64,000 bases of DNA from Solwaraspora sp. WMMA2065 (lineage in GTDB: Bacteria > Actinomycetota > Actinomycetes > Mycobacteriales > Micromonosporaceae): NCBI RefSeq assembly GCF_030345075.1, contig NZ_CP128361.1:4402001-4466000 (forward strand), given 5' to 3'. The notes under the pieces are model-generated. The model ran no database searches. It was given only the letters and a program-made list of their open reading frames with translations, and was not told the DNA's origin. The first letter of the stretch is position 1. Each line of letters begins with the position of its first letter. The translations under genes and the position numbers were made by a program. Below, piece by piece: positions 25,510 through 51,300 of this stretch.

Positions 25510-25537
25510 TATCCTCAGTAAACGATAACCGTTACCA
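25510..25537 (+). promoter_or_regulatory. Candidate promoter and Fur/Zur-family box of the 11-gene operon
   Basis: TATCCT at 25510-25515 is a possible -10. Right after it, CGATAAC-C-GTTACCA (25523-25537) is an imperfect 7-1-7 inverted repeat, the geometry of Fur-family (Fur, Zur, Nur) operators, in a stretch that is AT-rich for this genome. A repressor there would cover the transcription start. GAGGAGG precedes the ATG at 25571. That the operon carries a peptide/nickel-type importer fits metal control, but the regulator is not identified. Confidence 0.4.
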
Positions 25538-25570
25538 TCACCATGCCGGTTTCCGAGCGAGGAGGCGTCG

Positions 25571-26878
25571 ATGGCGCATGTGCTGCTGGTGGAGAGCTGG
25601 GTCGGTGCGATGGCGCATCTGCTGCCCAGGGCCGTGCTGGAGGCCGGTCACCAGTTCTCCTTCCTGACCCGCGACCTGCACCACTACCTGCGCAGCGCAC
25701 CGGCCGGGGGTGCACATCCGTTGCTCGCCGCGCACAATGTACTGACCGCCGAGACCAACGAGCTGCCCGGACTGCTGGAGCACACGGAACAGCTGCACCG
25801 GGCGCTGCGCTTCGACGGCGTGCTCACCTCCTGCGACTACTACCTCGACACCGCCGCCCAGCTGGCCGCCCACCTAGGACTGCCCGGCGCGGACCCAGAG
25901 GCGGTGCGCCGGGCGTACCGCAAGGACCTCGCCCGGGCGGCGATGGACGCCGCCGGCGTGCCGCAACCCCGGTACGCGCTCGCGCAGAGCTGGTCCGACG
26001 TCGCGCAGGCCGCCCGGGAGCTGGGCTTCCCGTTGGTGGTCAAACCGGTCGACCTCTGCGCCGGCATGTACGTGCGCGAAGTCGCCGACGAGGCCGGGCT
26101 ACGGGCGGCGTTCAACGCCCTCACCGGGTTCCCGGTCAACGCCAGACGCCAGCCCCGGGTGCCGACGGTGCTGCTGGAGGAGCTGCTGTCCGGTCCGGAG
26201 GTGAGCGTGGAGACGGTCACCGTGGACGGACACACGACGGTCGTCGGGGTGACCGACAAGAGCCTCGGCGGCGCCTCGGGGTTCGTCGAGACCGGACACA
26301 TGTTCCCGGCGGTGCTCGACCCGGCGACCACCCGCCGGGCCGGTGAGGTGGCGGTGGCCGCGCTGGCGGCGGTCGGGCTGGACCGCGGGGTCGCCCACAC
26401 CGAGCTGCGACTGACCCCGGCCGGGCCCCGGGTGGTCGAGGTCAACCCCCGGCCGGCCGGCAACCAGATCACCGAGCTGGTGCGCCGGGTCACCGGCATC
26501 GACCTGCCCATGGTGTACGCGCAGCTGGCGCTCGGCGAGACCGCCGACCTCACACCCGCCGACACGGGCGTACGCAGCGCGGCGATCGCATTCGTACTGC
26601 CGCCGCGCCCCGGTGTCATCGCCCGGGTTGACGGAACCGGGGCCTGGCAGACCGACCCACGGGTGGTCGACTGGTCGGTGAAACCCGCCGGCCACCGGGC
26701 CGGGGACAGCAGCAGCAACAACGACTACCTGGGCCACGTCATGGTTGTCGACACGGCCGGGACCGACGCGCGGACCATCGCCGACGGCCTGGCCGCACAG
26801 GTACGCGTCGGGTACGTCGACGACGACGGCACCGACCGGCACCGGTTCGCCGCCACGCCGGCCGGAGCGGCGGTATGA
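25571..26878 (+). CDS. ATP-grasp carboxylate-amine ligase
   Basis: 435 residues. The ATP-grasp fold is visible from about residue 115: 'GFPLVVKPVDLCAGMYV' carries the nucleotide-binding Lys, 'VLLEELLSGPEVSVETVT' the central strand, and 'RVVEVNPRPAGNQITEL' the Mg2+-binding Glu and Asn. The C-terminal ~120 residues resemble the LAL_C2 domain of L-amino acid ligases. It should activate a carboxylate as acyl phosphate and join it to an amine, probably forming a dipeptide or pseudopeptide. It is the first gene of an 11-gene operon and ends ATGA with the next gene. Confidence 0.85.
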   Translation: MAHVLLVESWVGAMAHLLPRAVLEAGHQFSFLTRDLHHYLRSAPAGGAHPLLAAHNVLTAETNELPGLLEHTEQLHRALRFDGVLTSCDYYLDTAAQLAAHLGLPGADPEAVRRAYRKDLARAAMDAAGVPQPRYALAQSWSDVAQAARELGFPLVVKPVDLCAGMYVREVADEAGLRAAFNALTGFPVNARRQPRVPTVLLEELLSGPEVSVETVTVDGHTTVVGVTDKSLGGASGFVETGHMFPAVLDPATTRRAGEVAVAALAAVGLDRGVAHTELRLTPAGPRVVEVNPRPAGNQITELVRRVTGIDLPMVYAQLALGETADLTPADTGVRSAAIAFVLPPRPGVIARVDGTGAWQTDPRVVDWSVKPAGHRAGDSSSNNDYLGHVMVVDTAGTDARTIADGLAAQVRVGYVDDDGTDRHRFAATPAGAAV

Positions 26879-27702
26879 CGGCCGTGTCGCCGGCCCCGCC
26901 GGCGTACCGGTCCCTCGCCGCGCTGATCGACGCGGTACAGGCCGGACGGCACGGCGTGGACCCGACCCGCTGCCAGGTCAGTGTGGGGTTCGTGACCAGG
27001 CAGGGCGCGAGGCACGCGAATCGGCTGCGCGGCTACCGCAACCAGGTGCTGAGCCTGCGGGTCGACGCGGCGGTCGGCTCCTGCGCGGTCGAGCCCGGCG
27101 CGCTGCCCGACGAGGTCGTCTACGACTGTGTCGGCGCCTCGGTCGCCGACCTGCTCGCGCATCCGCTGCTGCCGGTGCGGGTGGCCGCGCTCGACGCGTA
27201 CCTGATGGCGCAGCGGCCACACGCCGAGGTGGCCGACACCGTGGTCACCGTGCCCGCCGGCAGCTCGCTGGCCAAGTCGCAGACCCGGGCCGCCGCCGTG
27301 GTCGACCTGCTGCCGCCGACCGGCGGCCCGGTCCTGGTCGTCGGGGTGGTGAACTCGCTGCTGGCCCGGCTCCGCGCCGCCGACCGGCGGTACCTGCCGT
27401 GCGACCTGGCCGGCGGCCACACCGAATGGGACGAGCCGTGTCTGCCCGACGCGGCGGCGCTGCTGGACCGCTGCGACGCGATCCTCGCCTCGGGGATGAC
27501 GCTCGGCAACGGCACCTTCGAGCCGCTGCTGACCCACGCCGCCGCCGAGGGCAAGCCGTTCGTGACGTTCGCGCAGACCGGCAGCGCCGTGCTGCCGTGG
27601 TTCCTCGGCGCTGGGCTGACGGCGGTGTCGGCCGAGCCGTACCCGTTCTTCTGGCTCGACGGCGGACCGACGACCCTCTACCGGTACGGGGTGTCCGGGT
27701 GA
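26875..27702 (+). CDS. DUF4213/DUF364-type putative metal-chelation protein
   Basis: 275 residues. The N-terminal ~110 residues resemble the enolase-N-like DUF4213 domain. The C-terminal half is the Rossmann-like DUF364 domain: 'GPVLVVGVVNSLLARL', then 'ILASGMTLGNGTFEPLLTHA' and 'VTFAQTGSAVLPWFLGAG'. The structure of one family member led to a proposed role in binding heavy metals; no reaction is established. Here it stands between an amide ligase and a PLP enzyme, so it may be an enzyme or metal-handling protein of the same pathway. It is coupled to both neighbours by 4-base overlaps. Confidence 0.72.
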   Translation: MTAVSPAPPAYRSLAALIDAVQAGRHGVDPTRCQVSVGFVTRQGARHANRLRGYRNQVLSLRVDAAVGSCAVEPGALPDEVVYDCVGASVADLLAHPLLPVRVAALDAYLMAQRPHAEVADTVVTVPAGSSLAKSQTRAAAVVDLLPPTGGPVLVVGVVNSLLARLRAADRRYLPCDLAGGHTEWDEPCLPDAAALLDRCDAILASGMTLGNGTFEPLLTHAAAEGKPFVTFAQTGSAVLPWFLGAGLTAVSAEPYPFFWLDGGPTTLYRYGVSG

Positions 27703-28751
27703 GCGCCCCGCAGCTGCTGAACCTGGTGGGGCACACCCCGCTGATCTACGTCGACGCGCCGCTGCCGCACCCGCACGGCGGCTTCTGGGCGAAGGTCGAG
27801 TCCGCCGCGCCGGGTGGGATGAAGGCCCGCGCGGCGGTGGCGATGCTGGTAGGCGCGCGGCGGCGCGGCGAACTCCGCGACGGCGCACCGGTGGTGGAAT
27901 CGACCAGCGGCACCCTCGGCATCGGGCTGGTCTTCGCCGGGCAGGCCCTCGGCCACCCGGTGGTGCTGGTTGTCGACCGGGAGCTGGAGCCGTCGATGCG
28001 GGCGCTGCTACGCGCGTACGGAGCCCGGCTGGAGGTGGTCGAGCAGCCCCACCCGACAGGTGGCTGGCAGCAGGCCCGCCGGGAACGGCTGACGCAGGTG
28101 CTGGCGACGCTGCCCGGCGCGTACTGGCCGGACCAGTACCACAACCCCGACAACGTCGCCGGGTACGCGAGCCTCGGTGACGAGATCGCCGCCCAGGTCG
28201 ACACCGTCGACGTGCTGGTCTGCAGCGTCGGCACCGGCGGGCACAGCGCCGGGCTGGCCCGGACGCTGCGCCGGCACTGGCCGCAGCTGCGGCTGATCGG
28301 CGTGGACACCATCGGCTCGACGATCTTCGGCCAGCCGGCCCGACGGCGGGTGATGCGCGGGCTGGGCAGCAGCATCTTCCCGAACAACGTGGACTATCCG
28401 GCGTTCGACGAGGTGCACTGGCTGGGCCCGGCGGAGGCGGTGGACACCTGCCGGCGGCTGGCCCGGACGGCGTTCGTCACCGGCGGATGGTCCACCGGCG
28501 CGGTCGCCAGGGTCGCCGCCTGGGTGGCCCGCACCCAGCCGGACACCCGGGTGCTGGCGGTCTTCCCCGACGGCCCGCACCGCTACCTCGACTCCATCTT
28601 CGACGACGGCTGGTGCGGCCGGCACGGGCTGCTCGGCCCCACCCCCGGCCATCCGGTCGAGATACCGCACCCCGGTGCGGTGGAGGTCACCCGGTGGAGC
28701 CGCTGCCGGGTGGTCGGCGACCCGGTACGCCACGAGCGGGTGCCGGCATGA
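27699..28751 (+). CDS. Cysteine synthase-family PLP enzyme
   Basis: GTG at 27699 overlaps the previous stop; 350 residues. 'LLNLVGHTPLIYVDAP' is the fold-type II N-terminus. The PLP lysine is in 'APGGMKARAAVAML', and the substrate loop is 'VESTSGTLGIGLVFAGQ'. The phosphate loop is 'SVGTGGHSAGLARTL'. The usual 'PGGS(V/I)K' is changed to PGGMK, and the protein lacks CysK-specific features, so a specialised beta-replacement is likely. SbnA in staphyloferrin B synthesis is a precedent: it makes a precursor of 2,3-diaminopropionate. The product is unknown. Confidence 0.82.
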   Translation: MSAPQLLNLVGHTPLIYVDAPLPHPHGGFWAKVESAAPGGMKARAAVAMLVGARRRGELRDGAPVVESTSGTLGIGLVFAGQALGHPVVLVVDRELEPSMRALLRAYGARLEVVEQPHPTGGWQQARRERLTQVLATLPGAYWPDQYHNPDNVAGYASLGDEIAAQVDTVDVLVCSVGTGGHSAGLARTLRRHWPQLRLIGVDTIGSTIFGQPARRRVMRGLGSSIFPNNVDYPAFDEVHWLGPAEAVDTCRRLARTAFVTGGWSTGAVARVAAWVARTQPDTRVLAVFPDGPHRYLDSIFDDGWCGRHGLLGPTPGHPVEIPHPGAVEVTRWSRCRVVGDPVRHERVPA

Positions 28752-29797
28752 AACTGTCCTGGCACTCCTACCGGCTGGTGCTGCGCGAGCCGCTGCGGAT
28801 CTCCCGTTCGGTGATGGCCCACCGCGAAGCGGTCCGGCTCACCGTCACCCACGACGGGCTCACCGGCCACGGCGAGGTCGTCACCAGCGGCTACTACGGA
28901 CTCGACCGGGCCGCGATCGAACGTACCTGTGCCGGCTGGACCGGCCGACTCGCCGGCTGTTCGGATCCGGCGGCCCTGCGCGACGAGCTGAGCACCTTCG
29001 ACGGACCCGCCGGGGTGCTCGCGGCGCTGGACACCGCCGTGCACGACCTGCTCGGCCAGGCCCGGGGGCTGCCGGTGCACCGGCTGCTGCAAGCACCGGC
29101 ACCGACTCCGGTGGCCACGGCGTACACGATCGGGCTGGTGCCGGTCGCGGACGCGGCGGCGACCGCGCGTCGGCTGGTCGCCGCCGGGTTCGCGGTGCTG
29201 AAGGTGAAAGCCGGTGACGACGCCGACGTGGCCCGGGTGGCGGCGGTACGCGCCGAGGCGCCGACGGCCCGGCTGCTGCTCGACCCCAACGGCGGCTGGT
29301 CCGCCGAGCAGGCGGTACGGCGGCTCGACGCGCTCACCCCGTACCGGATCGACGCCGTCGAGCAGCCGATCCCGCCGGGTCGGCCCGACCTGCTGGCCCG
29401 GGTGGCCGCCCGCACCGCGATCCCGGTCGTCGCCGACGAGGACGCCGAGCGCCTCGCCGACCTGGACCGGCTCACCGGATCGGTCGCCGGGGTGAACGTC
29501 AAGCTGGCCAAGTGCGGCGGGATCGTCGCCGCCACCCGGATCGTCGAGGCGGCCAGGGAACGCGGCCTGGACATCATGCTCGGCTGCCTGGTCGCCAGCA
29601 CGCTCGGCGTCGCACCGGCCGTGCATCTGGCCGGCCTCGCCCGCTGGGTCGACCTGGACGGGCACCTGCTGATCGCCGATGACCCGTGGACCGGGATCGG
29701 CGGCCACGACGGCGTGCTGCGCCTGGCGGACACCCCCGGACTGGGCGTGACGCCGACGGCGACGACCGGATCCGGCGTGGCGGAGGCGGTGCGGTGA
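28748..29797 (+). CDS. Enolase-superfamily enzyme, dipeptide epimerase-like
   Basis: 349 residues starting ATGA with the previous gene. The muconate lactonising subgroup residues are all seen: K-x-K in 'FAVLKVKAGDD', metal ligands Asp in 'RLLLDPNGGWSA', Glu in 'IDAVEQPIPPG' and Asp/Glu in 'PVVADEDAERL', and the second-side Lys in 'GVNVKLAKCGG'. Two lysines facing each other across the site are what Ala-Glu type dipeptide epimerases and N-acylamino acid racemases use. With the ATP-grasp ligase two genes upstream, epimerisation of a newly made dipeptide is a reasonable inference. Confidence 0.82.
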   Translation: MKLSWHSYRLVLREPLRISRSVMAHREAVRLTVTHDGLTGHGEVVTSGYYGLDRAAIERTCAGWTGRLAGCSDPAALRDELSTFDGPAGVLAALDTAVHDLLGQARGLPVHRLLQAPAPTPVATAYTIGLVPVADAAATARRLVAAGFAVLKVKAGDDADVARVAAVRAEAPTARLLLDPNGGWSAEQAVRRLDALTPYRIDAVEQPIPPGRPDLLARVAARTAIPVVADEDAERLADLDRLTGSVAGVNVKLAKCGGIVAATRIVEAARERGLDIMLGCLVASTLGVAPAVHLAGLARWVDLDGHLLIADDPWTGIGGHDGVLRLADTPGLGVTPTATTGSGVAEAVR

Positions 29798-31056
29798 AGG
29801 CGACCTGGACGACGCTGACCAGTTTTCCACCGGCGATCCGGCTGCTGGTGGTCAACCAGCTCGGGGTCAACGTCGGCTTCTACATGCTGCTGCCCTACCT
29901 GGCCGGTTACCTGCGCGACGACATCGGCCTGTCGGCCACCCTGGTCGGCCTGGTCCTCGGGGTACGCAACCTGAGCCAGCAGGGACTGTTCCTGGTCGGC
30001 GGATCGGCCGCCGACCGGCTCGGCGCACGTGGCGTGATCATCGCGGGCTGCGGGCTGCGGGCGGTCGGCTTCGCGGTGTTCGCGGTCGGCGGGTCGCTGC
30101 CCGCACTGCTGGCCGCCTCGGTGCTGACCGGGCTGGCCGGGGCGCTGTTCAACCCGGCGGTACGCGCCTACCTCGCCGAGGCCGCCCCCGAGCGCCGGGC
30201 CGAGGCTTTCGCCCTGTTCAACGTCTTCGCCAGCGCCGGTGCGCTGCTCGGGCCGCTGCTCGGCAGCGCGCTGCTGCTGGTCGACTTCCGGGCCGCCGCG
30301 ATCGGCGCGACGGTGGTGTTCGCCGCGCTGACCGTGGCGCAACTGCTGGTGCTGCCACCGCACCCGGTGACCCGCAGCGGGCAGAGCGTCGGCCGGGACT
30401 GGCGGGAGGCGCTGACCGACGGTCGGTTCCTGGCGTTCACGGTGGCGTTGAGTGCGCTGTTCGCCCTGCAGACCCAGCTGTACCTGGTGCTACCGGTGCA
30501 GGCCGAGGCCGCCGCCGGCACCGCGCTGGCGGTGGCGGCACTCTTCGTCGTGTCCACGGTGGTCACTCTCGTCTGGCAGGTGCGGTTGACCGGCTGGCTG
30601 CGCCAGCGGGGCAGCCGTGGGGTGTCCATCGCGGCCGGGTCGGCGGTGGCCGGTCTCGGATTCCTGCTGCCGCTGCTGCCGGTGACCGGCCCGCCTCCGG
30701 TGCGGGCGCTGCCGACGCTGGTCGCCGCGCTGGCGCTGGCGGTCGGTGTGATGATGGCGCAGCCGTTCGTGTTGGAGCTGGTGCCCGGCTTCGCCCGCGA
30801 CGGGCTGACCGGCACCTACTTCGGCGTGTTCTACCTGGCCTCCGGGGTTGTGGCGGCGCTGGCCACCACCGCCGTCGGCCGGTTCATGCAGACCGGTGGC
30901 CAGCCGGACGGGGCGGCGCAGGGCGTACCCGCCGGAGCGTGGCTGCTCTGCGCCGGGCTGGGCCTGGCCTGCGGCGCCGCTGTGTGGGCGCTGCACCGCC
31001 GGGGCCTGCTCGCCCCACGTACGGTGCCGACCACCGCCGGAAAGGCGGCCCGGTGA
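29794..31056 (+). CDS. MFS transporter, likely product exporter
   Basis: 420 residues from GTG at 29794 (GTGA overlap). Twelve hydrophobic helices are visible, with an MFS motif in the loop after helix 2 ('GGSAADRLGARGVIIAG', a GxxxDRxGxR form). The first half closely resembles multidrug-type DHA1 transporters. Within a biosynthetic and import operon it most likely exports the product. Start and stop both overlap its neighbours. Confidence 0.85.
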   Translation: MKATWTTLTSFPPAIRLLVVNQLGVNVGFYMLLPYLAGYLRDDIGLSATLVGLVLGVRNLSQQGLFLVGGSAADRLGARGVIIAGCGLRAVGFAVFAVGGSLPALLAASVLTGLAGALFNPAVRAYLAEAAPERRAEAFALFNVFASAGALLGPLLGSALLLVDFRAAAIGATVVFAALTVAQLLVLPPHPVTRSGQSVGRDWREALTDGRFLAFTVALSALFALQTQLYLVLPVQAEAAAGTALAVAALFVVSTVVTLVWQVRLTGWLRQRGSRGVSIAAGSAVAGLGFLLPLLPVTGPPPVRALPTLVAALALAVGVMMAQPFVLELVPGFARDGLTGTYFGVFYLASGVVAALATTAVGRFMQTGGQPDGAAQGVPAGAWLLCAGLGLACGAAVWALHRRGLLAPRTVPTTAGKAAR

Positions 31057-31886
31057 GCGGGCCGGTGGTCGGGGGCGGGCCGGTGGTGTCGGACGGCAAC
31101 CTGCTCACCGACAACCCGCAGCTGTACGAGGCCCAGTTTCCCGACCCGGAGCACCGGGCGGCACGGTTCGTGGCCGACCTGGTCGACCGGTTCGCGCCCG
31201 GACCGCCCGGCCGGCGGCTGCTCGACCTCGGCTGCGGCACCGGCCGCGACGCCGGGTACCTCGCCGACGCCGGCTTCGACGTCACCGGGCTGGACCTGTC
31301 CACCCGGATGCTGGCCTACGCCCGCCGCCGCCACCAGCGGGTCCGGTTCGTCGAAGGTGACCTGCGTACCTTCGACCTCGGTCACCGCTTCGACGTGGTC
31401 ACCTGCCTGGACAGTGCCCTGCTGTACTGCCACGACAACGCCGACCTGACCACCGCGCTGGCAAACTGCCGACGGCAGCTGACCCCCGGCGGGCTGCTCG
31501 TCGCCGAGATGCGCAACGGCGCGTACTTCCTCGGCAACACCGACCTGGTCGACGGGCCCAGCATCCGGTCGGTGCGCTGGCAGGGCGTCACCTACACGTC
31601 CCGTACCACCTTGTGGATCGACGCCGCGGCGCAGCTGCTGCGCCGCCGTCGGATGTGGACCTGGCCGGGTGCGGAGCAGGAACTCGTGCAGAATTCCGCA
31701 TGGCGGCTGCTCTTCCCGCAGGAGCTGCGCCATCTGCTGGAGGGCGCCGGGTTCGACGTCCTCGCCCTGTTCGACGCCCCCGGCCCGCGTACCGAACCGC
31801 CCTGGCGTCCCGGCGCCGAGCTGGCGACCGGCCTACGCGGCGACCGCCTGCACCTGGTCGCCCGCCGCCGCGACGAAGCGGCCTGA
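31053..31886 (+). CDS. SAM-dependent methyltransferase
   Basis: 277 residues from GTG at 31053. The class I motif I is 'RRLLDLGCGTGRDAGYLAD', motif II 'VTGLDLSTRMLAYARRR', then 'VRFVEGDLRTFDL' and 'FDVVTCLDSALLYC'. About 15 extra residues precede the family start. It probably methylates an N, O or carboxyl group of the operon's product; the target is not visible. It is followed by 24 bp with a ribosome-binding site before the solute-binding protein gene, the only non-overlapping junction in the operon. Confidence 0.85.
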   Translation: MSGPVVGGGPVVSDGNLLTDNPQLYEAQFPDPEHRAARFVADLVDRFAPGPPGRRLLDLGCGTGRDAGYLADAGFDVTGLDLSTRMLAYARRRHQRVRFVEGDLRTFDLGHRFDVVTCLDSALLYCHDNADLTTALANCRRQLTPGGLLVAEMRNGAYFLGNTDLVDGPSIRSVRWQGVTYTSRTTLWIDAAAQLLRRRRMWTWPGAEQELVQNSAWRLLFPQELRHLLEGAGFDVLALFDAPGPRTEPPWRPGAELATGLRGDRLHLVARRRDEAA

Positions 31887-31910
31887 AATCCCCTCTGGAA
31901 GGAAACCGAT

Positions 31911-33476
31911 ATGTCTGCTGTTGCACGACTACGCCGCCGAACATTGCTCGGCGGCGGTGCCGCCGTGACCGCCGCGCTTCTCGCCGGCTGCGGCGCCGAC
32001 TCCGACGCCCCTGCTGGTTCCGACACCGCCGCCGGCGGCACCCCGAAGAAAGGTGGCCGACTGCGGGTCGCCTTCGCCGGTGGCGGCGCCAACGAGAGCC
32101 TCGACCCGCACCTGGCGGGCCTGTTCAACGAGGCGTCCCGGGCCAAGGCGATCTTCGACAAGCTCGCCGACTACGGCCCGGACGTGTCGATCCAGCCCCG
32201 GCTCGCACTGAGCTGGGAGCCCAACGCCGACCTCACCCGCTGGCGGGTGCCGCTGCGCGAAGCCACCTTCCACGACGGCCGGCCGGTGCGGGCCGCCGAC
32301 GTGCTGGCCAGCTACGCCCGGATCACCGACCCGGACCGGGCCTTCCGCGCCAGGTCAAGTCTGTCGCTGATCGATCTGCGGGCGAGCCGGGCCGTCGACG
32401 ACCGGACCGTCGAATTCGCTCTGACCCGTCCGTTCGCCGAGTTCGGCAACATGCTCGCCGCGTTCGGCGCCTACATCGTGCCTGAGGGCAGCGAATCGTT
32501 CGACCAGCCGATCGGCTCCGGGCCGTTCACGTTCAGCAGCTTCACCCCCGGTACGTCGCTGCTGCTGGCCCGGTACCCGGACTACTGGGAGGGCGCCGCG
32601 CACCTCGACGAGCTGGAGTACGTGATCGCCAACGAGGAGTCGGCGCGGGTCAACGCGCTGCTCGCCGGGCAGGTCGAGTACGCGCACGACATCAGCCCCA
32701 CCACGGCCCGCAGCTACGCCGCCGACGACCGGATCGCCATCACCCGGATGGCCAACAGCGGCCTGCAGGGCTTCACCATGAAGCTGGACCGGCCCCCGTT
32801 CGACAACCGGGACCTACGGGAGGCGATGTTCCTGCTCACCGACCGGCAGCAGCTGGTCGAGACGGTGCTGTCCGGATCCGGGCAGATCGGCAACGACCTG
32901 TTCGGCAAGGGCTACCAGTACTACGCCGACGACATCCCGCAGCGCGAACCCGACCTCGACCGGGCCCGCGCGCTCATCGACCGGGCCGGCGCAAGCGGCC
33001 TGCGGATCCCGCTGGACACCGCGCCGGTGGCCGCCGGGTTCGTCGAGGCGGCCAGCGTCTTCGCCGACCAGGCCCGCGCGGTCGGGCTGAACGTCGAACC
33101 GGTGCAGCGCAACAAGGACACCTACTGGCGGGAGGTGCTCGACAACGGAGTCATGGCCTGCTTCCGCTCCGGCGCCATGCCGATCGAGACCCACATCTCG
33201 CAGCGGCTGCTGAGCACCTCCACGACGAACGCCACCAAGTGGATGCGGCCCGAGTTCGACGACCTCTACGCCACCGCCGTGTCCAGCGCCGACGAAGCGG
33301 GCCGGCGGCAGGCGTACGGCGACATGCAGCGGATGCTGCACGCCGAGGGCGGGCTGCTGGTGTGGGGCTTCGCCGACTTCCTCGTCGCCACCACACCCCA
33401 GGTCGGCGGGGTGTCCGCCGATGCCCCCGCCAACACCCTCGACTGGGCCCGCTTCGACAAGGTGTGGCTGGCTTGA
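31911..33476 (+). CDS. Family 5 solute-binding lipoprotein (peptide/nickel ABC importer)
   Basis: 521 residues. The N-terminus has twin arginines ('RLRRRTLLGGGAAVT') and a lipobox LAGC, so it is a Tat-exported lipoprotein. The body is SBP_bac_5 (DppA/OppA/NikA/CntA): 'ANESLDPHLAGLFNEASRA', 'VSIQPRLALSWEPNADL' and 'ATFHDGRPVRAADVLASYAR'. The Cys anchors it outside the membrane, where it should bind a peptide or a metal complex and feed the permeases encoded next. Placement in a ligase/PLP/epimerase operon suggests recapture of the exported product, like CntA for staphylopine. Confidence 0.9.
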   Translation: MSAVARLRRRTLLGGGAAVTAALLAGCGADSDAPAGSDTAAGGTPKKGGRLRVAFAGGGANESLDPHLAGLFNEASRAKAIFDKLADYGPDVSIQPRLALSWEPNADLTRWRVPLREATFHDGRPVRAADVLASYARITDPDRAFRARSSLSLIDLRASRAVDDRTVEFALTRPFAEFGNMLAAFGAYIVPEGSESFDQPIGSGPFTFSSFTPGTSLLLARYPDYWEGAAHLDELEYVIANEESARVNALLAGQVEYAHDISPTTARSYAADDRIAITRMANSGLQGFTMKLDRPPFDNRDLREAMFLLTDRQQLVETVLSGSGQIGNDLFGKGYQYYADDIPQREPDLDRARALIDRAGASGLRIPLDTAPVAAGFVEAASVFADQARAVGLNVEPVQRNKDTYWREVLDNGVMACFRSGAMPIETHISQRLLSTSTTNATKWMRPEFDDLYATAVSSADEAGRRQAYGDMQRMLHAEGGLLVWGFADFLVATTPQVGGVSADAPANTLDWARFDKVWLA

Positions 33477-34423
33477 GCCTGACCCGCTACACGGTTCGGC
33501 GGCTGCTGCTCGGCGTCGGGCAGGTCGCCGGCATCACCACCATCGTGTTCGTGCTCACCGAGGCGCTGCCCGGCGACGCGGCGGTGGTGATCGCCGGTGA
33601 CCAGCCCGACCCGGAGCGGATCGCGCTGATCCGCGAACAGCTCGACCTTGACCAGCCACCGTGGCAGCGGTACCTCGACTGGCTCGCCGGGCTGCTGCAC
33701 GGAGACTTCGGCGAATCGCTGATCTCCCAACGGCCGGTCCTGGACATGATCGTCGGCAGCGCCGCCGCGACCGTACTGCTGGCCGCCGTGACGCTGCTCG
33801 TCCTCGTCCCGATCGCGATCGGCCTCGGCATGCTCGCCGCCCGGCGCGAAGGCGGCCGGCTCGACCGCGCCATCAGCGCCGTCGCCGTCGGTCTCTACGC
33901 GGTACCGGAGTTCGCCCTGGCCATCCTGCTGGTCGCGGTTTTCGGCGTACGGCTGGGCTGGTTTCCGCCGACCGCCGTCGGCACCGGCCCCAACCTGCTC
34001 GCCCAGCCGGCCGTGCTGGTCCTGCCGCTGCTGGTGCTGCTGGCCCGACCGATCTGCTCACTCAGCCGGCTGACCCGCGCCGGCATGGTCGACGCGCTGC
34101 GCTCCGAGTACGTCGCCCACGCCCGCCGCCTCGGCCTCGGTGCCCGTCGCCGGTGGCTGGCCCACGCACTGCCCACCGCCGCCGCGCCGGTCGTGCAGCA
34201 ACTCGCCCGCACCACCGACTGGCTGCTCGGCGGCGTCATCGTCGTCGAGGCGGTCTTCGTCATCCCCGGTCTGGGTACCGCCCTGGTCGACGCGGTCGCC
34301 GCCCGGGACGTCCCCACCGTCCAAGGGCTGTGCGTGATCGTGGCGGTCACCACCGTGGTCGTCAACCTGGCCGCCGACCTGGTCGCATTCCGGCTCGCCC
34401 CGCGTGCGGCAGGTGCCCGATGA
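33473..34423 (+). CDS. ABC permease, DppB/NikB type
   Basis: TTG at 33473 overlaps the previous stop (TTGA); 316 residues. It starts 'LTRYTVRRLLLGVGQVAGIT', the usual DppB beginning, and has six helices. The 'EYVAHARRLGLGARRR' loop is the EAA motif that contacts the ATPase. It is one half of the membrane channel with the next gene. Confidence 0.9.
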   Translation: MSLTRYTVRRLLLGVGQVAGITTIVFVLTEALPGDAAVVIAGDQPDPERIALIREQLDLDQPPWQRYLDWLAGLLHGDFGESLISQRPVLDMIVGSAAATVLLAAVTLLVLVPIAIGLGMLAARREGGRLDRAISAVAVGLYAVPEFALAILLVAVFGVRLGWFPPTAVGTGPNLLAQPAVLVLPLLVLLARPICSLSRLTRAGMVDALRSEYVAHARRLGLGARRRWLAHALPTAAAPVVQQLARTTDWLLGGVIVVEAVFVIPGLGTALVDAVAARDVPTVQGLCVIVAVTTVVVNLAADLVAFRLAPRAAGAR

Positions 34424-35265
34424 CCGGCCGGGCTCCGATGATCAGCCGGGTTCGGCGGACCGGCCGGGTTCCGCGCCTGGTCACCGGGGTCGTCCTGCTC
34501 GCCGTACCGCTGCTGCTCGCTCTCGCCGGTCCGGCCCTGGTCGATCTGGCCCTGGTCGGCAACGGCGCGGACCGGACCCGGCCGTTCGACCAGGCAGGGC
34601 TGCTCGGCACCGACTTCGTCGGCCGGGACGTCACCGGGCAGCTCCTGCTCGGCGGCCGGTCCGTCGTCGCGGTCGCCGCCGCCGCGACCGCCCTGGCCTA
34701 CCTGATCGGCGTACCCGTCGGTCTGTTCGCCGCGCTCACCCGCCGGCGCTGGCTCGACGAGGTGCTGATGCGCCCGCTGGACCTGCTCCTCGCCGTCCCG
34801 TCGCTGCTGCTGCTCATCCTGCTCGCCGCCACCGCACCCCAGGGGCCGGTGACGCTGGTGGTAATCGTCGCCGTCATCGCCCTGCCGGAGATCGCCCGGA
34901 TCACCCGCGCCGCGGCCCTGCCGCTGGCCCACGGACCCGCGATGGAAGCGATGCGGCTCTACCGGGAGACGTGGTGGCGGCGGGCGGTCGGGTACGTCGC
35001 CCGGGGTATCCGCCGGGTCCTGCTGGCCGACGCCGGGATCCGGTTCATCGGCGCCGTCTACCTCGTCGCCACCGCCAGTTTCCTGGGCATCGGCGTCGCC
35101 CCGGACGCCGCCGACTGGGCCGTCATGGTCGACCGCAACCGCGCCGGGATCTTCCTGCAGCCGTGGGCGGTGGTGGTGCCCGCCGCGCTGCTCGTCGCGC
35201 TCGCCGTCGGGGTCAACCTGGTCACCGATCAGCTGCTGGCCACCCGGCCGGAGGTCACGAAGTGA
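34420..35265 (+). CDS. ABC permease, DppC/NikC type
   Basis: 281 residues from the ATG at 34420 (ATGA overlap). 'GLLGTDFVGRDVTGQLLLGG' is the DppC signature after the first helix, and five more helices follow. The EAA loop is degenerate ('PAMEAMRLYRETWWRRAVGY'). It should pair with the previous permease. Confidence 0.87.
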   Translation: MTGRAPMISRVRRTGRVPRLVTGVVLLAVPLLLALAGPALVDLALVGNGADRTRPFDQAGLLGTDFVGRDVTGQLLLGGRSVVAVAAAATALAYLIGVPVGLFAALTRRRWLDEVLMRPLDLLLAVPSLLLLILLAATAPQGPVTLVVIVAVIALPEIARITRAAALPLAHGPAMEAMRLYRETWWRRAVGYVARGIRRVLLADAGIRFIGAVYLVATASFLGIGVAPDAADWAVMVDRNRAGIFLQPWAVVVPAALLVALAVGVNLVTDQLLATRPEVTK

Positions 35266-36845
35266 TCCGGGTCGACGGGCTGTGCGCCGACGCCGGTGGA
35301 CAGCGGCTGCTGCGCGACGTGTCGTTCACCGTGGCGGCCGGCGACATCCTCGCCGTCGTCGGCCCGTCCGGCAGCGGCAAGACCACGCTCGGGCGGGCGC
35401 TGCTCGGCGAAGCCGGACCCGGCGTCCGGCTTACCGGCGACGTCGAGATCCATGGTCGCCCGGTCAGCCCAGAGACACCGCCGGCCGGCGGCACCGTCGG
35501 CTACATTCCGCAGCAGCCGGCGGCGGCGCTGACCCCGGTACGCCGGATCGGCCCGGTGCTGCGCGAGATCGCCCGCCGGCACACCCCGACGCCGTCGCGT
35601 CGGACACGGAGCGCCGCCACCCGGCAGGCGGTCCGGGCGGTACTGGCCCGGGTCGGCCTGCCGGACGACCGCGACCTGCTGCGGCGCTACCCGCACCAAC
35701 TCTCCGGCGGCCAGCAGCAGCGGCTCGTCATCGCGCACGCCCTGCTGGCCGGTGCCCGCGTCCTGGTCGCCGACGAACCGACCACCGGGCAGGACAGCCT
35801 CAACCGCCGCGACGTCGCCGCCGAACTACGCCGTCTCGCCGGCTCCGGCGTCGCGGTCGTCCTGCTCACCCACGACCTGCACCTGGTACGGGCGGTCGCC
35901 GATGGCGTCCTCATGCTCGACCGGGGCGCCGTCGTCGCCTCCGGTCCACCGGACGCGGTCCTTCCTGACACCCCAGCTCGGCCAGCGCGGACCCCCGCCG
36001 CTGACCCGCCGGGCGGTGCCGGTCAGCTGCTGCGGGTCGCCGGGCTCACCGCAGCGCACCACGGCAGCACCGTCCTGCACGACATCGACATGGTCATCGG
36101 CCCCGGACAGCGCCTCGCCCTGGTCGGCCGCTCCGGCAGCGGCAAGACCACCGTCGCCCGCTGCCTGGCCGGCCTGCACTCACCGAGCGGCGGCAGTATC
36201 GAACTCGACGGCCGCCGGCTCGCCGGCTCGATCGACCGCCGGCAGCGGGGCGACCTCACCACCGTGCAGTACGTCTTCCAGGATCCGCGGGCCAGTTTCC
36301 AGCCGTCCGCCGCCCTGCTCGACCAGGTCGCCCGCCCCGCCGTACGGCTGCACCGCCAACCGACCGTCGAGGCGCTGCGGACCGCCCACGACCTGCTGCG
36401 TCAGGTCGGGATCGACGATGCTCTCGCCGCCCGCCGCCCCGACCGGCTCTCCGGCGGTGAGCTGCAACGCGCCGCTCTGGCCCGCGCCCTGGTGGCCCGA
36501 CCCCGGCTGCTGGTCTGCGACGAGATCACGTCCGGTCTCGACCGCGTCAACCAGGACCGGATCCTCGACCTGCTCGACGAAGTGTGCCGCACCCACCGGC
36601 TCGCGCTGCTGGTCATCACGCACGACCCGGACGTGGTCGACCGGCTCGCCGACCACGTCACCGTGCTCGACCACGGCCGGGTCGTGGAACACGGTCCCGC
36701 CGCCACCGTGCTGCGCGCCGGCCGGCAGCCGCTGACCCGCGCCCTGCTCGACCCTGACCTGCCGCGACCGCGCGACCCCGACCTGCCGCGACATCTGTCG
36801 CGACCCGCAACCACGTCCAGCACCGGAGAGATGAGCACCACGTGA
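35262..36845 (+). CDS. Fused double ABC ATPase (DppD-DppF type)
   Basis: GTG at 35262, 527 residues holding two complete nucleotide-binding domains. The first has GPSGSGKTT, LSGGQQQR and 'VLVADEPTTGQD'; the second has GRSGSGKTT, LSGGELQR and 'LLVCDEITSGLD'. Peptide/nickel importers usually have two separate ATPases; here both are on one chain. The C-terminal ~30 residues repeat RDPDLPR. It powers the two permeases encoded upstream. Confidence 0.92.
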   Translation: MIRVDGLCADAGGQRLLRDVSFTVAAGDILAVVGPSGSGKTTLGRALLGEAGPGVRLTGDVEIHGRPVSPETPPAGGTVGYIPQQPAAALTPVRRIGPVLREIARRHTPTPSRRTRSAATRQAVRAVLARVGLPDDRDLLRRYPHQLSGGQQQRLVIAHALLAGARVLVADEPTTGQDSLNRRDVAAELRRLAGSGVAVVLLTHDLHLVRAVADGVLMLDRGAVVASGPPDAVLPDTPARPARTPAADPPGGAGQLLRVAGLTAAHHGSTVLHDIDMVIGPGQRLALVGRSGSGKTTVARCLAGLHSPSGGSIELDGRRLAGSIDRRQRGDLTTVQYVFQDPRASFQPSAALLDQVARPAVRLHRQPTVEALRTAHDLLRQVGIDDALAARRPDRLSGGELQRAALARALVARPRLLVCDEITSGLDRVNQDRILDLLDEVCRTHRLALLVITHDPDVVDRLADHVTVLDHGRVVEHGPAATVLRAGRQPLTRALLDPDLPRPRDPDLPRHLSRPATTSSTGEMSTT

Positions 36846-37453
36846 ACGACCAGAACATCGGTCCGTACGACATCCGTACCGCCACGCCGCAGCACCTCGA
36901 CGGTGCCCGCAGCGTCATGCTCGACACCTTCTACCAGGTGTTCGGCTACGGCTATCAGCCGCGGTGGCACGCCGACGTCATCGACCTCGCCGGCACCTAC
37001 CTACGGCCTGAGCGGCATGCGCTATTCGTCGCGGTCAAGGGCGACGAGGTGGTCGCCACCACCGCCGTCCGCGCCGCCGCGCCGAACAGCCCGCCGCATC
37101 CCCGCTGGCTGGTCGACCGCTACCCGGCGGCGAGCACCGCCCAGCTGTTCCGGGTCTACGTACGCCCGGAACACCGCCGCAACGGGCTGGCCCGCGCACT
37201 GGTCCGACGGGCCGTCGCGTTCGCCGCCGGGCACCCCGGCTACCGGGCGGTCTACCTGCACACCGACACCGGGGTCCCCGGGGCGGAGGCGTTCTGGCGG
37301 AGCGTGGCCGAGGTGGTGCACGACCCCCGCGACGGCAGCCCGCACGCCTCCCGGGTGGTGCACTTCGAGATACCGATATCCGTCAATACCCGGCGCGTCC
37401 CGGTGGCAGCGGGTTCGGCAGGTCGGAGCCGATGGTCGCGGTCACCGTGCTAG
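36842..37453 (+). CDS. GNAT-family N-acetyltransferase
   Basis: 203 residues from GTG at 36842 (GTGA overlap), last gene of the operon. The acetyl-CoA site is 'LFRVYVRPEHRRNGLARALV' (R-x2-G-x-A form), preceded by 'RHALFVAVKGDEVVATTAVR'. It may acetylate an intermediate or the final product, or protect the producer. The last ~25 residues (after 'HFEIPI') are not family-like and run into a region of pseudogenes, so the native C-terminus may have been lost at a rearrangement. Confidence 0.75.
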   Translation: MNDQNIGPYDIRTATPQHLDGARSVMLDTFYQVFGYGYQPRWHADVIDLAGTYLRPERHALFVAVKGDEVVATTAVRAAAPNSPPHPRWLVDRYPAASTAQLFRVYVRPEHRRNGLARALVRRAVAFAAGHPGYRAVYLHTDTGVPGAEAFWRSVAEVVHDPRDGSPHASRVVHFEIPISVNTRRVPVAAGSAGRSRWSRSPC

Positions 37454-37479
37454 GAGAGAGCCCGTCTGCAAAGGTCACC

Positions 37480-37846
37480 GTGCTCGGGGCTGCGGCCCGG
37501 CCAGGGATTCCGGGTAGGTGAGCACCTTGGTGTAGTTCGCGAACCCGGCGAGAACCGGAATCTCCTGGACGATCACGTTGTCCCGGAACGAGTAGCCGAC
37601 CACCATGCCCGAGGACCGGTTCTCCTGTGCTGCGGGCGAGTGCGTCGGGCAGGGTCTTCGAGGCGGCGCCGGTGAGCAGCTGTTGCTTGGCCGAGGCGTA
37701 CGGCGCGCTCAGCAACTCGATCTCGATGTTCGGGTTCTGCGCGGTGAACTCGTCGATGATCCGGTCGAACTTTGCCGACTGGTCCGACGCACCGTCGTCC
37801 ACACCACACGCCGCGACGAACGCGACTGTCGTCGCGGTCACCGCCC
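37480..37846 (-). pseudogene. Remnant of a sugar-type solute-binding lipoprotein
   Basis: The minus strand encodes the end of a signal peptide and lipobox ('VAFVAACGVDDGASDQSAKF'), then 'FTAQNPNIEIELLSAPYAS', a typical start of a family 1 sugar-binding protein. After about 70 residues similarity is lost and the frame changes; a second protein-like stretch ('GYSFRDNVIVQEIPVLAGF') continues in another frame. The gene has lost its start, most of its middle and its end. Confidence 0.65.
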
Positions 37847-37847
37847 C

Positions 37848-38359
37848 GCACCGACCGCGCCGTCGACCAGCGGCTCAGCCTGCAGGAGAAGGAGAAGATC
37901 GCGGCACTGGCCGCGGCGTTGGTTGAGGACAGCTCGACCATCATGATCAGCAGCGGGACGACGACCCTGGCGGTCGCCCGCAACCTGGGCCGGCACCGCG
38001 ACCTCACCGTGGCGACGACCAATCTGCTGGTGCCCGGGGCGCTGCCACCCACCGCCATCGGCGACATCGGCGTCGGTGCGGTCGATGCGGAGGCCGGTCG
38101 CACGACCAGCAACCTCACCGAAGCCGCGATGACGCAGGAGATGATCTCGCGCGCCGGCCGGGTGGCCATCCTCGCCGACTCCTCGAAGTTCGGCCGCCGA
38201 CTCTTCGCCCAGGTCTCCGAGCTAAGCAGCGCGGACTACCTGATCACCGACACCCTGCCGCCCGCCGAATTACGGGAGGCGCTGGCCGCGAGCGATGTGA
38301 AGGTCGTCACCCCGCCGGCCCCACCACGACAGAGAGGGGCCCGCAACGCGGTCTGCTAG
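37848..38359 (+). pseudogene. Truncated DeoR-family regulator (sensor domain only)
   Basis: From about 37848 the frame encodes 'RLSLQEKEKIAALAAALVED', then 'TIMISSGTTTLAVARNLG' and 'RVAILADSSKFGRRLFAQV', the DeoR C-terminal sugar-phosphate sensor. The N-terminal helix-turn-helix is missing, and about 20-30 residues are missing in the middle. It abuts the remnant lipoprotein head to head; together they look like a deleted sugar-uptake cassette. Confidence 0.7.
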
Positions 38360-48377: not shown

Positions 48378-51300
48378 TCAACCGCTGTAGTGCTCTAGTC
48401 GCACGCTTATGACGCCGAGAGTGGTTGCAATGGCGATGATTCCGGGAACGAGGAATGCGGTTCCATAAGCTGATTCTGGAAGATGAATCTCTGTGGTTTC
48501 GTAGGCTCGTAGGCTGGCCGTGTCCCACATCCGCACCGTCTTGTCGGCGCTGCCGGAGACGATGATGGTGCGGCCGTCGAGTTGGCCCACCGCCACCGAA
48601 TGCACCCAATCGGTGTGGCCGGTGAAGGGCTGGCCGATCGGGGTGCCGGTGGCTGCGTCCCACATCCGCACCGTCTTGTCGGCGCTGCCGGAGACGATGA
48701 TGGTGCGGCCGTCGAGTTGGCCCACCGCCACCGTACGCACCCAATCGGTGTGGCCGGTGAGGGGCTGGCCGATCGGGGTGCCGGTGGCTGCGTCCCACAT
48801 CCGCACCGTCTGGTCGGCGCTGCCGGTGACGATGATGGTGCGGCCGTCGAGTTGGCCCACCGCCACCGACCAGACCGCGCTGGTGTGACCGGTGAAGGGC
48901 TGGCCGATCGGGGTGCCGGTGGCTGCGTCCCACATCCGCACCGTCTGGTCGGCGCTGCCGGTGACGATGATGGTGCGGCCGTCGAGTTGGCCCACCGCCA
49001 CCGACCAGACCGCGCTGGTGTGACCGGTGAAGGGGTCGCCGACGGGGGTGCCGGTGGCCGCGTCCCACATCCGCACTGTCCGGTCGGCGCTGCCGGAGAC
49101 GATGATGGTGCGGCCGTCGAGTTGGCCCACCGCCACCGAATGCACCCAATCGGTGTGGCCGGTGAAGGGCTGGCCGATCGGGGTGCCGGTGGCTGCGTCC
49201 CACATCCGCACCGTCTGGTCGGCGCTGCCGGAGACGATGATGGTGCGGCCGTCGAGTTGGCCCACCGCCACCGACCAGACCCTGCTGGTGTGACCGGTGA
49301 AGGGCTGGCCGATCGGGGTGCCGGTGGCTGCGTCCCATACCCGCACCGTCTTGTCGTCGCTGCCGGTGACGACGACTGGGCTGCCGTCGAGTTGGCCCAC
49401 CGCCACCGTACGCACCCAACCGGTGTGGCCGGTGAGGGGCTGGCCGATCGGGGTGCCGGTGGCTGCGTCCCACATCCGCACCGTCTTGTCGTCGCTACCT
49501 GTGACAATGATGGTGCGGCCGTCGAGTTGGCCCACCGCCACCGTACGCACCCAACCGGTGTGGCCGGTGAAGGGCTGGCCGATCGGGGTGCCGGTGGCTG
49601 CGTCCCACATCCGCACCGTCTGGTCGGCGCTGCCGGAGACGATGATGGTGCGGCCGTCGAGTTGGCCCACCGCCACCGTACGCACCCAACCGGTGTGGCC
49701 GGTGAAGGGCTGGCCGATCGGGGTGCCGGTGGCTGCGTCCCACATCCGCACCGTCTTGTCGTCGCTACCTGTGACGATGATGGTGCGGCCGTCGAGCTGG
49801 CCCACCGCCACCGACCAGACCGCGCTGGTGTGGCCGGTGAAGGGGTCGCCGATCGGGGTGCCCGTGGCGGTGTCCCACATCCGCACCGTCTTGTCGTCGC
49901 TGCCGGAGACGATGACTGGGCGGCCGTCGAGCTGGCCCACCGCCACCGAACGCACCCAACCGGTGTGACCGGTGAAGGGGTCGCCGATCGGGGTGCCCGT
50001 GGCGGTGTCCCATACCCGCACCGTCCGGTCGGCGCTGCCGGAGACGACGACTGGGCGGCCGTCGAGCTGGCCCACCGCCACCGACCAGACCCTGCCGGTG
50101 TGGCCGGTGAAGGGCTGGCCGATCGGGGTGCCCGTGGCGGTGTCCCACATCCGCACCGTCTGGTCGGCGCTGCCGGAGACGATGACTGGGCTGCCGTCGA
50201 GCTGGCCCACCGCCACCGCGCTCACGTCGCCGGTGTGGCCGGTGAAGGGGTCGCCGATCGGGGTGCCCGTGGCGGTGTCCCACATCCGCACCGTCCGGTC
50301 GGCGCTGCCGGAGACGATGACTGGGCTGCCGTCGAGCTGGCCCACCGCCACCGCGCTCACGTCGCCGGTGTGGCCGGTGAAGGGCTGGCCGATCGGGGTG
50401 CCCGTGGCGGTGTCCCACATCCGCACCGTCCGGTCGGCGCTGCCGGAGACGATGATGGTGCGGCCGTCGAGCTGGCCCACCGCCACCGACCAGACCCTGC
50501 CGGTGTGACCGGTGAAGGGCTGGCCGATCGGGGTGCCCGTGGCGGTGTCCCACATCCGCACCGTCCGGTCGGCGCTGCCGGAGACGATGATGGTGCGGCC
50601 GTCGAGCTGGCCCACCGCCACCGACCAGACCCTGCCGGTGTGACCGGTGAAGGGCTGGCCGATCGGGGTGCCCGTGGCGGTGTCCCATACCCGCGCCGTC
50701 CGGTCGGCGCTGCCGGAGACGACGACTGGGCGGCCGTCGAGCTGGCCCACCGCCACCGCGCTCACGTCGCCGGTGTGGCCGGTGAAGGGCTGGCCGATCG
50801 GGGTGCCCGTGGCGGTGTCCCACATCCGCACCGTCCGGTCGGCGCTGCCGGAGACGACGACTGGGCGGCCGTCGAGCTGGCCCACCGCCACCGCGCTCAC
50901 GTCGCCGGTGTGGCCGGTGAAGGGCTGGCCGATCGGGGTGCCCGTGGCGGTGTCCCACATCCGCACCGTCCGGTCGGCGCTGCCGGAGACGACGACTGGG
51001 CGGCCGTCGAGCTGGCCCACCGCCACCGCGCTCACGTCGCCGGTGTGGCCGGTGAAGGGCTGGCCGATCGGGGTGCCCGTGGCGGTGTCCCACATCCGCA
51101 CCGTCCGGTCGGCGCTGCCGGAGACGACGACTGGGCGGCCGTCGAGCTGGCCCACCGCCACCGCGCTCACGTCGCCGGAGTGGCCGGTGATGGTGTGGTG
51201 GGGTGTGGACAGGCGGCAGGATGCCCAGTCGGTGGCGAATGGCAGCGGTAGGCCGCTGTCCGCGATCGCTTGGGCGAGTTTCGGGGCACGCGCGCAGCGG

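Follow-up and report, generated by a model that had tools for sequence, protein, structure and literature searches.

An eleven-gene operon of Solwaraspora sp. WMMA2065 that probably encodes a Zur-repressed zincophore system

An eleven-gene operon in the genome of Solwaraspora sp. WMMA2065 probably encodes a Zur-repressed zinc metallophore (zincophore) system, with Zur binding, zinc as the metal and the product itself all predicted from sequence comparison. To our knowledge, few bacterial zincophore pathways are known. No description of this gene set was recognised among the open-access PMC papers listed, as judged by titles and the starts of abstracts, and earlier publication is possible.

The operon lies within the window, the whole 64,000-nucleotide stretch of DNA that was analysed. 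An earlier note had described eleven genes on one strand with 4-base overlaps at nine of the ten junctions, and both statements hold: no stop codon interrupts any of the eleven frames, which lie on the + strand and span 25571-37453, and the coordinates give exact 4-base overlaps at 9/10 junctions, with start codons chosen to yield them. The sole junction without an overlap is a 24-base gap between the methyltransferase and the binding protein. A simple gene finder that had the operon's own genes as its training set placed the starts of the methyltransferase, the binding protein and the first permease slightly later or earlier. Searches of Pfam and NCBIfam confirmed the gene family names given in the note, with the exception of DUF4213, for which the Pfam scan gave no separate match, only DUF364. 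Rfam yielded no match to known RNA elements in the window at gathering scores, and PADLOC yielded no anti-phage defence match for the first four operon proteins. The features are as follows.

25523..25537, no strand: Zur-box-like palindrome CGATAACCGTTACCA, 33 bases 5' of the first start codon, 2 mismatches to TGANAANNNTTNTCA
25571..26878, + strand: ATP-grasp ligase, L-amino-acid-ligase type (PF13535, PF18603 LAL_C2 and PF18130 above gathering)
26875..27702, + strand: DUF364 protein, probably an enzyme (PF04016, 29.0 bits, cut-off 23)
27699..28751, + strand: SbnA/cysteine-synthase-like PLP enzyme (PF00291; TIGR03945 252.6 bits, under the 349.95 cut-off)
28748..29797, + strand: enolase-superfamily dipeptide-epimerase-like enzyme (PF13378, PF02746)
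29794..31056, + strand: MFS transporter, presumed exporter (PF07690, 2e-35; best NCBIfam match MdtH, under cut-off)
31053..31886, + strand: SAM-dependent methyltransferase (PF13649, 3.7e-21)
31911..33476, + strand: peptide/nickel-type solute-binding lipoprotein with a twin-arginine signal (PF00496, 6.7e-71)
33473..34423, + strand: ABC permease 1, Opp/Nik type (PF00528, PF19300)
34420..35265, + strand: ABC permease 2, Opp/Nik type (PF00528)
35262..36845, + strand: double ABC ATPase, two fused nucleotide-binding domains (PF00005, 2 stretches)
36842..37453, + strand: GNAT acetyltransferase-like protein (best NCBIfam match RiPP GNAT, 4e-5, under cut-off)

Evidence that this arrangement is not due to chance came from 80 named loci, a similarity-selected sample that comprises the best matches out of at least 252 related loci. 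In every one of the 80, the first three genes are grouped on a single strand, and gene order is kept in Micromonospora, Streptomyces, Lentzea, Actinokineospora and Saccharopolyspora and on a Rhodococcus plasmid. The co-occurrence of the first four genes across genomes, which the earlier note had proposed as a check, was likewise borne out within this similarity-selected sample, where the four-gene core (ATP-grasp ligase, DUF364 protein, SbnA-like PLP enzyme and dipeptide-epimerase-like enzyme) is present in 76/76 named loci examined. Around the core, the transporters are found in 70-73 of the 76 loci and the methyltransferase in 69 (not found in 7). The least constant gene is the GNAT, present in 41/76 loci, on the operon strand in 21 and on the opposite strand in 20; the window copy shares 94.5% identity over 183 residues with the corresponding protein of one relative (G001), and its last ~25 residues diverge from those of relatives. 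Three loci (L008, L021, L038) have the core with no MFS, methyltransferase or ABC matches nearby, three others (L010, L024, L079) lack some importer genes, and one (L176) lacks the epimerase. A closely related DUF364 gene occurs in 28/354 genomes of the host's family.

The assignment to zinc comes from the upstream regions. A Zur-type box with at most 2 mismatches precedes the operon in 80/87 upstream regions, whereas among the controls it appears in 1.84% of 1,740 shuffled sequences and in 2.1% of 300-base pieces drawn at random from the same loci; the other seven regions have 3 mismatches, a score that is the best match in 18% of shuffles. The box agrees with the Zur motif of Streptomyces, tGaNNatSatNNtCa, and with the 21-mer of actinobacteria, taaTGaNAANNNTTNtCANta, as given in passages of PMC5472717. 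The copy in the window, at 25523-25537, is a weak one, with 2 mismatches over 10 specified positions, and alone it proves nothing, since the five host places examined that have no zinc-related gene also score 2 mismatches. Four same-genus relatives carry the box at the same position (−48) with 1 mismatch each, and boxes with 1 mismatch also precede the operon on the Rhodococcus plasmid and on a Streptomyces plasmid. Ten box places were examined in the host genome, five of them with 0-1 mismatches. One of these five precedes a ZnuA gene that appears to belong to a znuABC set, accompanied by one gene each of the ArsR and Fur families. Another precedes a second ZnuA-like gene and a third sits where a CobW gene begins, so that ZnuA-like or CobW genes stand at 3/5 of the best-box places; the rest of the five adjoin surface proteins and another importer of the Opp type. 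By its predicted promoter box, the operon most likely belongs to the Zur regulon, Zur binding itself being a prediction. The conserved box, together with its better host copies at two ZnuA-like genes and a CobW gene, makes zinc the most likely metal, which narrows the choice among Zn, Ni, Co and Fe that the earlier note had left.

Three of the four core proteins resemble families of known chemistry to different degrees. The ATP-grasp ligase matches the ATP-grasp (PF13535, 63.2 bits) and LAL_C2 (PF18603, 53.8 bits) families above gathering, and its closest PDB entries are the L-amino acid ligase 3vot (7.9e-23) and BacD (7.9e-19). It shares its fold and LAL_C2 domain with bacilysin-type BacD and other L-amino acid ligases, but differs from BacD in operon setting and in its score against the BacD model (59.7 bits, cut-off 850). 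For the SbnA-like PLP enzyme, the best PDB matches are the SbnA entries 5d84-5d87. Its Arg127 and Tyr147 align with SbnA Arg132 and Tyr152, and Gly178 takes the place of SbnA Ser185, the three SbnA residues being ones that we take to have functional roles in that enzyme; each of the operon residues is kept in at least 97% of 80 sequences. Because of the glycine, the second substrate need not be the same as that of SbnA. In the epimerase-like enzyme, K152, K154, D179, E205, D230, K252, D302 and D304 are kept in at least 97% of 76 sequences. A KxK motif (here K152/K154), metal ligands and a DxD motif (D302/D304) are what we take to be the signature of dipeptide epimerases of the enolase superfamily. 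PDB matches to this protein include the dipeptide epimerases 3rit and 3jva, and its scores fall under the equivalog cut-offs for DgcA (235.2 of 400) and L-Ala-D/L-Glu epimerase (126.4 of 343). Matches to the SbnA, CntA, NikA and ligase models were all under curated cut-offs.

The DUF364 protein is probably an enzyme. Its AlphaFold2 model (pLDDT 91.8) has as best Foldseek matches 3l5o and 3npg, both DUF364 proteins, with a TM of 0.58-0.61 and E values of 7.5e-8 and 1.5e-7 against 3l5o. A direct phmmer search of the PDB found nothing, and a profile search found 3npg at 2.9e-4. The operon protein shares the fold of these proteins in its predicted model, and what sets its subfamily apart is the association with an SbnA-like enzyme and with Zur-like boxes. 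The 3l5o paper proposed a role in flavin, pterin or siderophore synthesis and heavy-metal chelation, and its passages on 3l5o give no reaction (PMC2954201).

Biosynthesis genes, presumed exporter and dedicated importer are encoded together. The binding lipoprotein has Opp5A_nikA as its best NCBIfam match and matches CntA at 6e-15, all under cut-offs, and contains RRRTLLGG and LLAGC, a signal judged by eye. The double ATPase is NikE/NikD-like and CntD/CntF-like, also under cut-offs.

In the proposed mechanism, Zur would leave the box at 25523-25537 when zinc is low, and the operon would be made as one unit. The SbnA-like enzyme would form an amino acid of the 2,3-diaminopropionate or N-(2-amino-2-carboxyethyl) type, probably from O-phosphoserine, which the ATP-grasp ligase would couple to another amino acid. 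The resulting dipeptide would then be epimerised by the enolase-superfamily enzyme and decorated by the methyltransferase and sometimes the GNAT, and the DUF364 protein may contribute one more step in close association with the PLP enzyme. Export of the product would fall to the MFS protein, and the lipoprotein and Opp/Nik-type ABC transporter would recover its zinc complex. The conserved catalytic residues, and the presence of SbnA, an L-amino acid ligase and dipeptide epimerases among the nearest solved relatives, support this chemistry, which in its details we offer as a tentative scheme, somewhat more apt to need revision than to stand, with product and step order conjectural. The unusual amino acid, ligation, epimerisation and methylation envisaged in the earlier note fit the families and conserved residues. 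Some loci lack the epimerase, some the methyltransferase and some the GNAT.

The core enzymes appear to fit none of the zinc-scavenger pathways compared, a set outside which the EDDS genes lie. EDHA and [S,S]-EDDS are aminopolycarboxylate metallophores with aes-type clusters, and EDDS is described as Zur-controlled in parts of PMC4993170 and PMC9252823. The opine-type zincophores staphylopine and pseudopaline share the logic of synthesis, export and reimport with the operon, and staphylopine also a peptide/nickel-type ABC importer. The core is not of the opine type, since neither CntL (nicotianamine-synthase-like) nor CntM (opine dehydrogenase) is among the matches listed (Pfam for ten proteins, NCBIfam for eleven, best 25 families). 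The staphyloferrin B route provides, in SbnA, the closest solved relatives of the PLP enzyme, but the operon enzyme has Gly in place of SbnA Ser185, and the ornithine-cyclodeaminase family of SbnB is not found in the operon among the matches listed. The EDHA cluster of Streptomyces scabiei, with published locus tags scab_5231-5311 (in part of PMC8914351), was located by a PLP-enzyme match at 598 kb and by gene content, an assignment that is probable. Of the core genes, it shares only the SbnA-like enzyme with the operon, and a family-5 binding protein, Opp-type permeases and an ATPase lie beside it, as in the operon. It encodes TauD, ornithine-cyclodeaminase-like and Orn/DAP-decarboxylase-like proteins and a MATE exporter, and the 18 kb examined contain no ATP-grasp, DUF364 or epimerase match; conversely, no ornithine-cyclodeaminase-like or decarboxylase-like partner is among the Pfam and NCBIfam matches listed for the window operon. 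The window PLP enzyme is 35% identical to the EDHA-cluster enzyme versus 69% to the operon's own S. scabiei counterpart.

A second cluster type (type II) pairs DUF364 and an SbnA-like enzyme with an MFS protein and a FecCD/PBP2 importer, usually with a HemK-like methyltransferase and a GHMP kinase, and boxes with at most 2 mismatches accompany it in 9/9 cases viewed. It and type I (ATP-grasp ligase, epimerase and Opp/Nik importer) both have Zur-like boxes and are both found on plasmids. We lean slightly towards an undescribed zincophore biosynthetic class defined by DUF364 and the SbnA/cysteine-synthase-like enzyme, with two cluster types, in which DUF364 would catalyse a new reaction of metallophore biosynthesis. 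Two candidates were set aside. One is a place in S. scabiei, at 10.01 Mb, that encodes an MFS protein and a PLP enzyme of 57% identity but gave no DUF364 or ATP-grasp match within the 19.5 kb examined. The other consists of DUF364 relatives from two same-genus genomes, at 30% identity, which lack an SbnA-like gene nearby in the stretch examined; the one of them that was scanned adjoins a radical SAM/B12 protein.

The make-export-reimport metallophore of the earlier note has thus gained a conserved Zur-type box, better host boxes at ZnuA-like and CobW genes and a second Zur-box cluster type, its product staying conjectural. Other explanations have to be weighed against it. The operon could make a bacilysin-like dipeptide antibiotic, with the ligase adding a warhead amino acid, the MFS protein exporting the product, the GNAT giving self-resistance and the ABC transporter recycling. 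An MFS exporter and a GNAT are typical of dipeptide antibiotic operons and the ligase resembles BacD, but neither the conserved Zur-type box nor a sister cluster type with a siderophore-type importer would be expected of such an operon, and the GNAT is not found in 35/76 loci; we consider an antibiotic quite unlikely.

A metallophore for nickel, cobalt, copper or iron, merely co-controlled by zinc, is also unlikely. Parts of the importer do resemble nickel and staphylopine systems, and opine metallophores can bind several metals, as stated in part of PMC7438024. However, consensus boxes for IdeR (iron) and Nur (nickel) fit the same upstream regions poorly, with best matches at 6-10 and 3-6 mismatches, respectively, and the best host boxes favour ZnuA-like and CobW genes. 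It is highly improbable that there is no metallophore at all and that Zur switches on zinc-sparing metabolism or the scavenging of peptides: the importer is of the peptide type, and replacement proteins, for example ribosomal protein paralogs that lack cysteines and so release zinc, are also under Zur control (passages of PMC5472717), but the ligase, the PLP synthase-like enzyme and the MFS transporter suggest that a compound is built and exported, not broken down.

Under the zincophore reading, the recurrence of the DUF364 and SbnA-like pairing in a second Zur-box cluster type makes the function of DUF364 testable, and the operon is a concrete setting for finding the reaction of a family with solved structures. 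A 2026 genome-mining paper (PMC12971057, in part) expects that distinguishing siderophores from zincophores will likely need regulatory elements. The locus would be an example of that distinction, in an operon type that is common in soil actinomycetes and for which one scan found at least 252 related loci.

The operon lies at window positions 25571–37453 on the + strand of a host genome assembled as a single contig of 6.74 Mb (completeness 99%). Nine of the ten junctions between its eleven genes are 4-base overlaps, and the remaining one is a 24-base gap upstream of the binding-protein gene. The genes are, in order:

Gene 1, + strand: ATP-grasp ligase with an LAL_C2 domain
Gene 2, + strand: DUF364 protein
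Gene 3, + strand: SbnA/cysteine-synthase-like PLP enzyme
Gene 4, + strand: enolase-superfamily epimerase
Gene 5, + strand: MFS transporter
Gene 6, + strand: methyltransferase
Gene 7, + strand: family-5 solute-binding lipoprotein
Genes 8 and 9, + strand: two Opp/Nik-type permeases
Gene 10, + strand: double ABC ATPase
Gene 11, + strand: GNAT protein

The NCBIfam matches relied on all score under the curated cut-offs, so these proteins are taken to be related to the named enzymes without belonging to their families. The C-terminal ~25 residues of the GNAT protein are unlike those of its relatives, and in the same-genus relative G005 (locus L191) a single 816-residue open frame is called for the second permease and ATPase. 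Directly 3' of the operon, positions 37383–38359 hold an apparent remnant of a sugar-binding protein, recognized by eye, and an apparent DeoR regulator remnant with the PF00455 C-terminal domain alone. Elsewhere in the window, a 1,675-residue open frame (48378–53405, − strand) has a start that resembles a caspase-like domain.

A scan of the DUF364 protein against a collection of species genomes gave at least 252 related loci, of which the best 80 were retained; in all 80, the ATP-grasp, DUF364 and PLP genes share one strand. Gene presence was counted in the 76 of these with at least 10 kb past the DUF364 start, and since the 80 are the most similar loci, the figures are not valid for the whole family: DUF364, PLP enzyme and epimerase are each found in 76/76, an ATP-grasp match in 76/76 (75/76 under a stricter test of place), the MFS gene in 73, the methyltransferase in 69, the binding protein in 71, the permeases in 70 and 71, the ATPase in 72, and the GNAT gene in 41. 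Three loci (L008, L021, L038) have the core with no transporter matches, and in three others (L010, L024, L079) some parts of the importer have no match. Both ligase and epimerase are called as two pieces in L010, and locus L176 has no epimerase.

DUF364 matches occur in 37 of 354 genomes of the host's family (among the matches listed, 28 close relatives, four of a 41–43% type and five weak), in 5/7 genomes of its genus and in 7/396 of a phylum-wide sample. Plasmids also bear the operon, with six of nine plasmid hits at least 54.9% identical. The two of these six that were viewed, on Streptomyces angustmyceticus p1 and Rhodococcus sp. ZPP pRZP2, keep the gene order and lack the GNAT gene; the second permease of p1 is present though unannotated. 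pRZP2 (locus L182) is a linear plasmid typed as mobilizable, and its ten-gene operon has a recombinase gene directly upstream and a DUF1490 gene downstream.

Evidence for zinc regulation came from comparing the sequences upstream of the operons with the consensus sites of several regulators, which showed that the palindrome TGAAAATGATTATCG recurs there. Consensus boxes of IdeR and Nur fit these regions poorly. The pattern TGANAANNNTTNTCA, which matches the Zur motif for Streptomyces and other actinobacteria as set out in PMC5472717, is present at two mismatches or fewer in 80 of the 87 upstream regions, each 300 bases long (0 mismatches in 5, 1 in 44, 2 in 31, 3 in 7); the same holds for 1.84% of 1,740 dinucleotide-shuffled sequences and for 2.1% of pieces drawn at random from the same loci. 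The 87 regions are the window and 86 loci, with loci short of upstream sequence left out and the same species possibly under two handles in some cases; for loci from named organisms only, the count is 69 of 76 usable (of 80). The window box (25523–25537) has two mismatches, and the 64 kb hold just one further site scoring as well. Four same-genus relatives carry the box with one mismatch at an equal distance to the start codon.

The motif was also examined across the host genome. A relaxed pattern gave 28 hits against 8 for a reversed control, counting palindromic places on both strands and including four hits from one repeated sequence. Ten regions with such hits were rescored by the full pattern, and in five of them it is matched with 0 or 1 mismatch. 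One box precedes a ZnuA gene followed by genes for an ABC ATPase, an ABC-3 permease, and ArsR-family and Fur-family proteins; another precedes a second ZnuA-like gene; a third, at a CobW gene, lies within the frame as called, immediately 5' of a likelier start codon. In the other two regions the boxes adjoin Ig-repeat surface proteins, and one of these regions has a second Opp-type importer. The remaining five regions reach two mismatches at best, with no zinc-related genes recognized. This split supports the motif as a putative Zur site. The window copy likewise has two mismatches, so the case for its box comes from the site being conserved in relatives and not from how well this copy scores. 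At locus L141 of the host (G000:C1:1796500-1804500), a second Opp-type binding protein, 32% identical to that of the operon, is encoded with two permeases; three Zur-like boxes (0–1 mismatch) adjoin this importer and a large Ig-repeat protein is divergent. The system is a candidate second zinc-chelate importer.

DUF364 relatives of ~40–43% identity occupy a different cluster (type II), which encodes DUF364, an SbnA-like PLP enzyme (28–30% identical to that of the window where measured), an MFS transporter, a FecCD permease, an ATPase and a PBP2-type binding protein. For the FecCD permease and the binding protein, the assignment is by family scan in two or three clusters and by similarity or annotation in the others. 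Nine were viewed: L169, L170, L171, L178, L179, L180, L183, L184 and L185. A GHMP kinase is found in eight (L169 is without one), and a HemK-like methyltransferase in six (L169, L170, L178, L179, L180, L185), with none seen in L171, L183 and L184. The leading or divergent intergenic region holds a box with no mismatch in L169, L178, L179 and L180, with one in L170 and L185, and with two in L171, L183 and L184, that of L184 being weak because the searched interval is ~1.3 kb. Three type II clusters, one from Tsukamurella, are carried on plasmids. The DUF364 proteins of the window-type operon (type I) and type II have motifs in common that are absent from a more distant DUF364 protein. Because the two types have DUF364, the SbnA-like enzyme and the MFS transporter in common, import by transporters that are unrelated to each other, and each show Zur-like boxes, their comparison provides the strongest argument that the DUF364 and SbnA-like enzymes would make a zinc metallophore.

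Sequence comparisons suggest an outline of the chemistry. SbnA is the closest solved relative of the PLP enzyme, which retains SbnA residues Arg132 and Tyr152 and has Gly in place of SbnA Ser185; given the roles that we assume for these residues, a phosphoserine-type substrate is plausible. The type II GHMP kinase could supply a phosphorylated amino acid. The closest relatives of the ligase are L-amino acid ligases, and the epimerase retains the acid/base lysines, metal ligands and DxD pair typical of dipeptide epimerases; the pathway therefore likely passes via a dipeptide-like intermediate. The predicted DUF364 model (pLDDT 91.8) best matches structures 3l5o and 3npg. For 3l5o, PMC2954201 proposes an interdomain active site, without a defined reaction, and connects the protein with flavins, pterins or siderophores as well as with metal chelation.

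The operon is not of the opine type, because CntL and CntM of those zincophores do not occur among the matches listed for its proteins (the best 25 for a protein with more). The EDHA locus is given in PMC8914351 as scab_5231-5311. A probable EDHA cluster of S. scabiei, identified by its gene content, lies at a 598-kb PLP match; that genome carries the counterpart of the operon at 9.09 Mb. Beside its SbnA-like gene, the probable EDHA cluster encodes TauD, ornithine-cyclodeaminase-like, decarboxylase-like and MATE proteins, and this different gene set argues that the operon is not of the EDHA type. Streptomyces scabiei also has locus L167 at 10.0 Mb, where a PLP enzyme and the MFS gene after it are 57% and 43% identical, respectively, to their operon counterparts, with no DUF364 or ATP-grasp match in the neighbourhood. 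The predicted biosynthetic core differs from those compared (opine, probable EDHA), and we conclude that the operon is most likely, in kind, a metallophore system.
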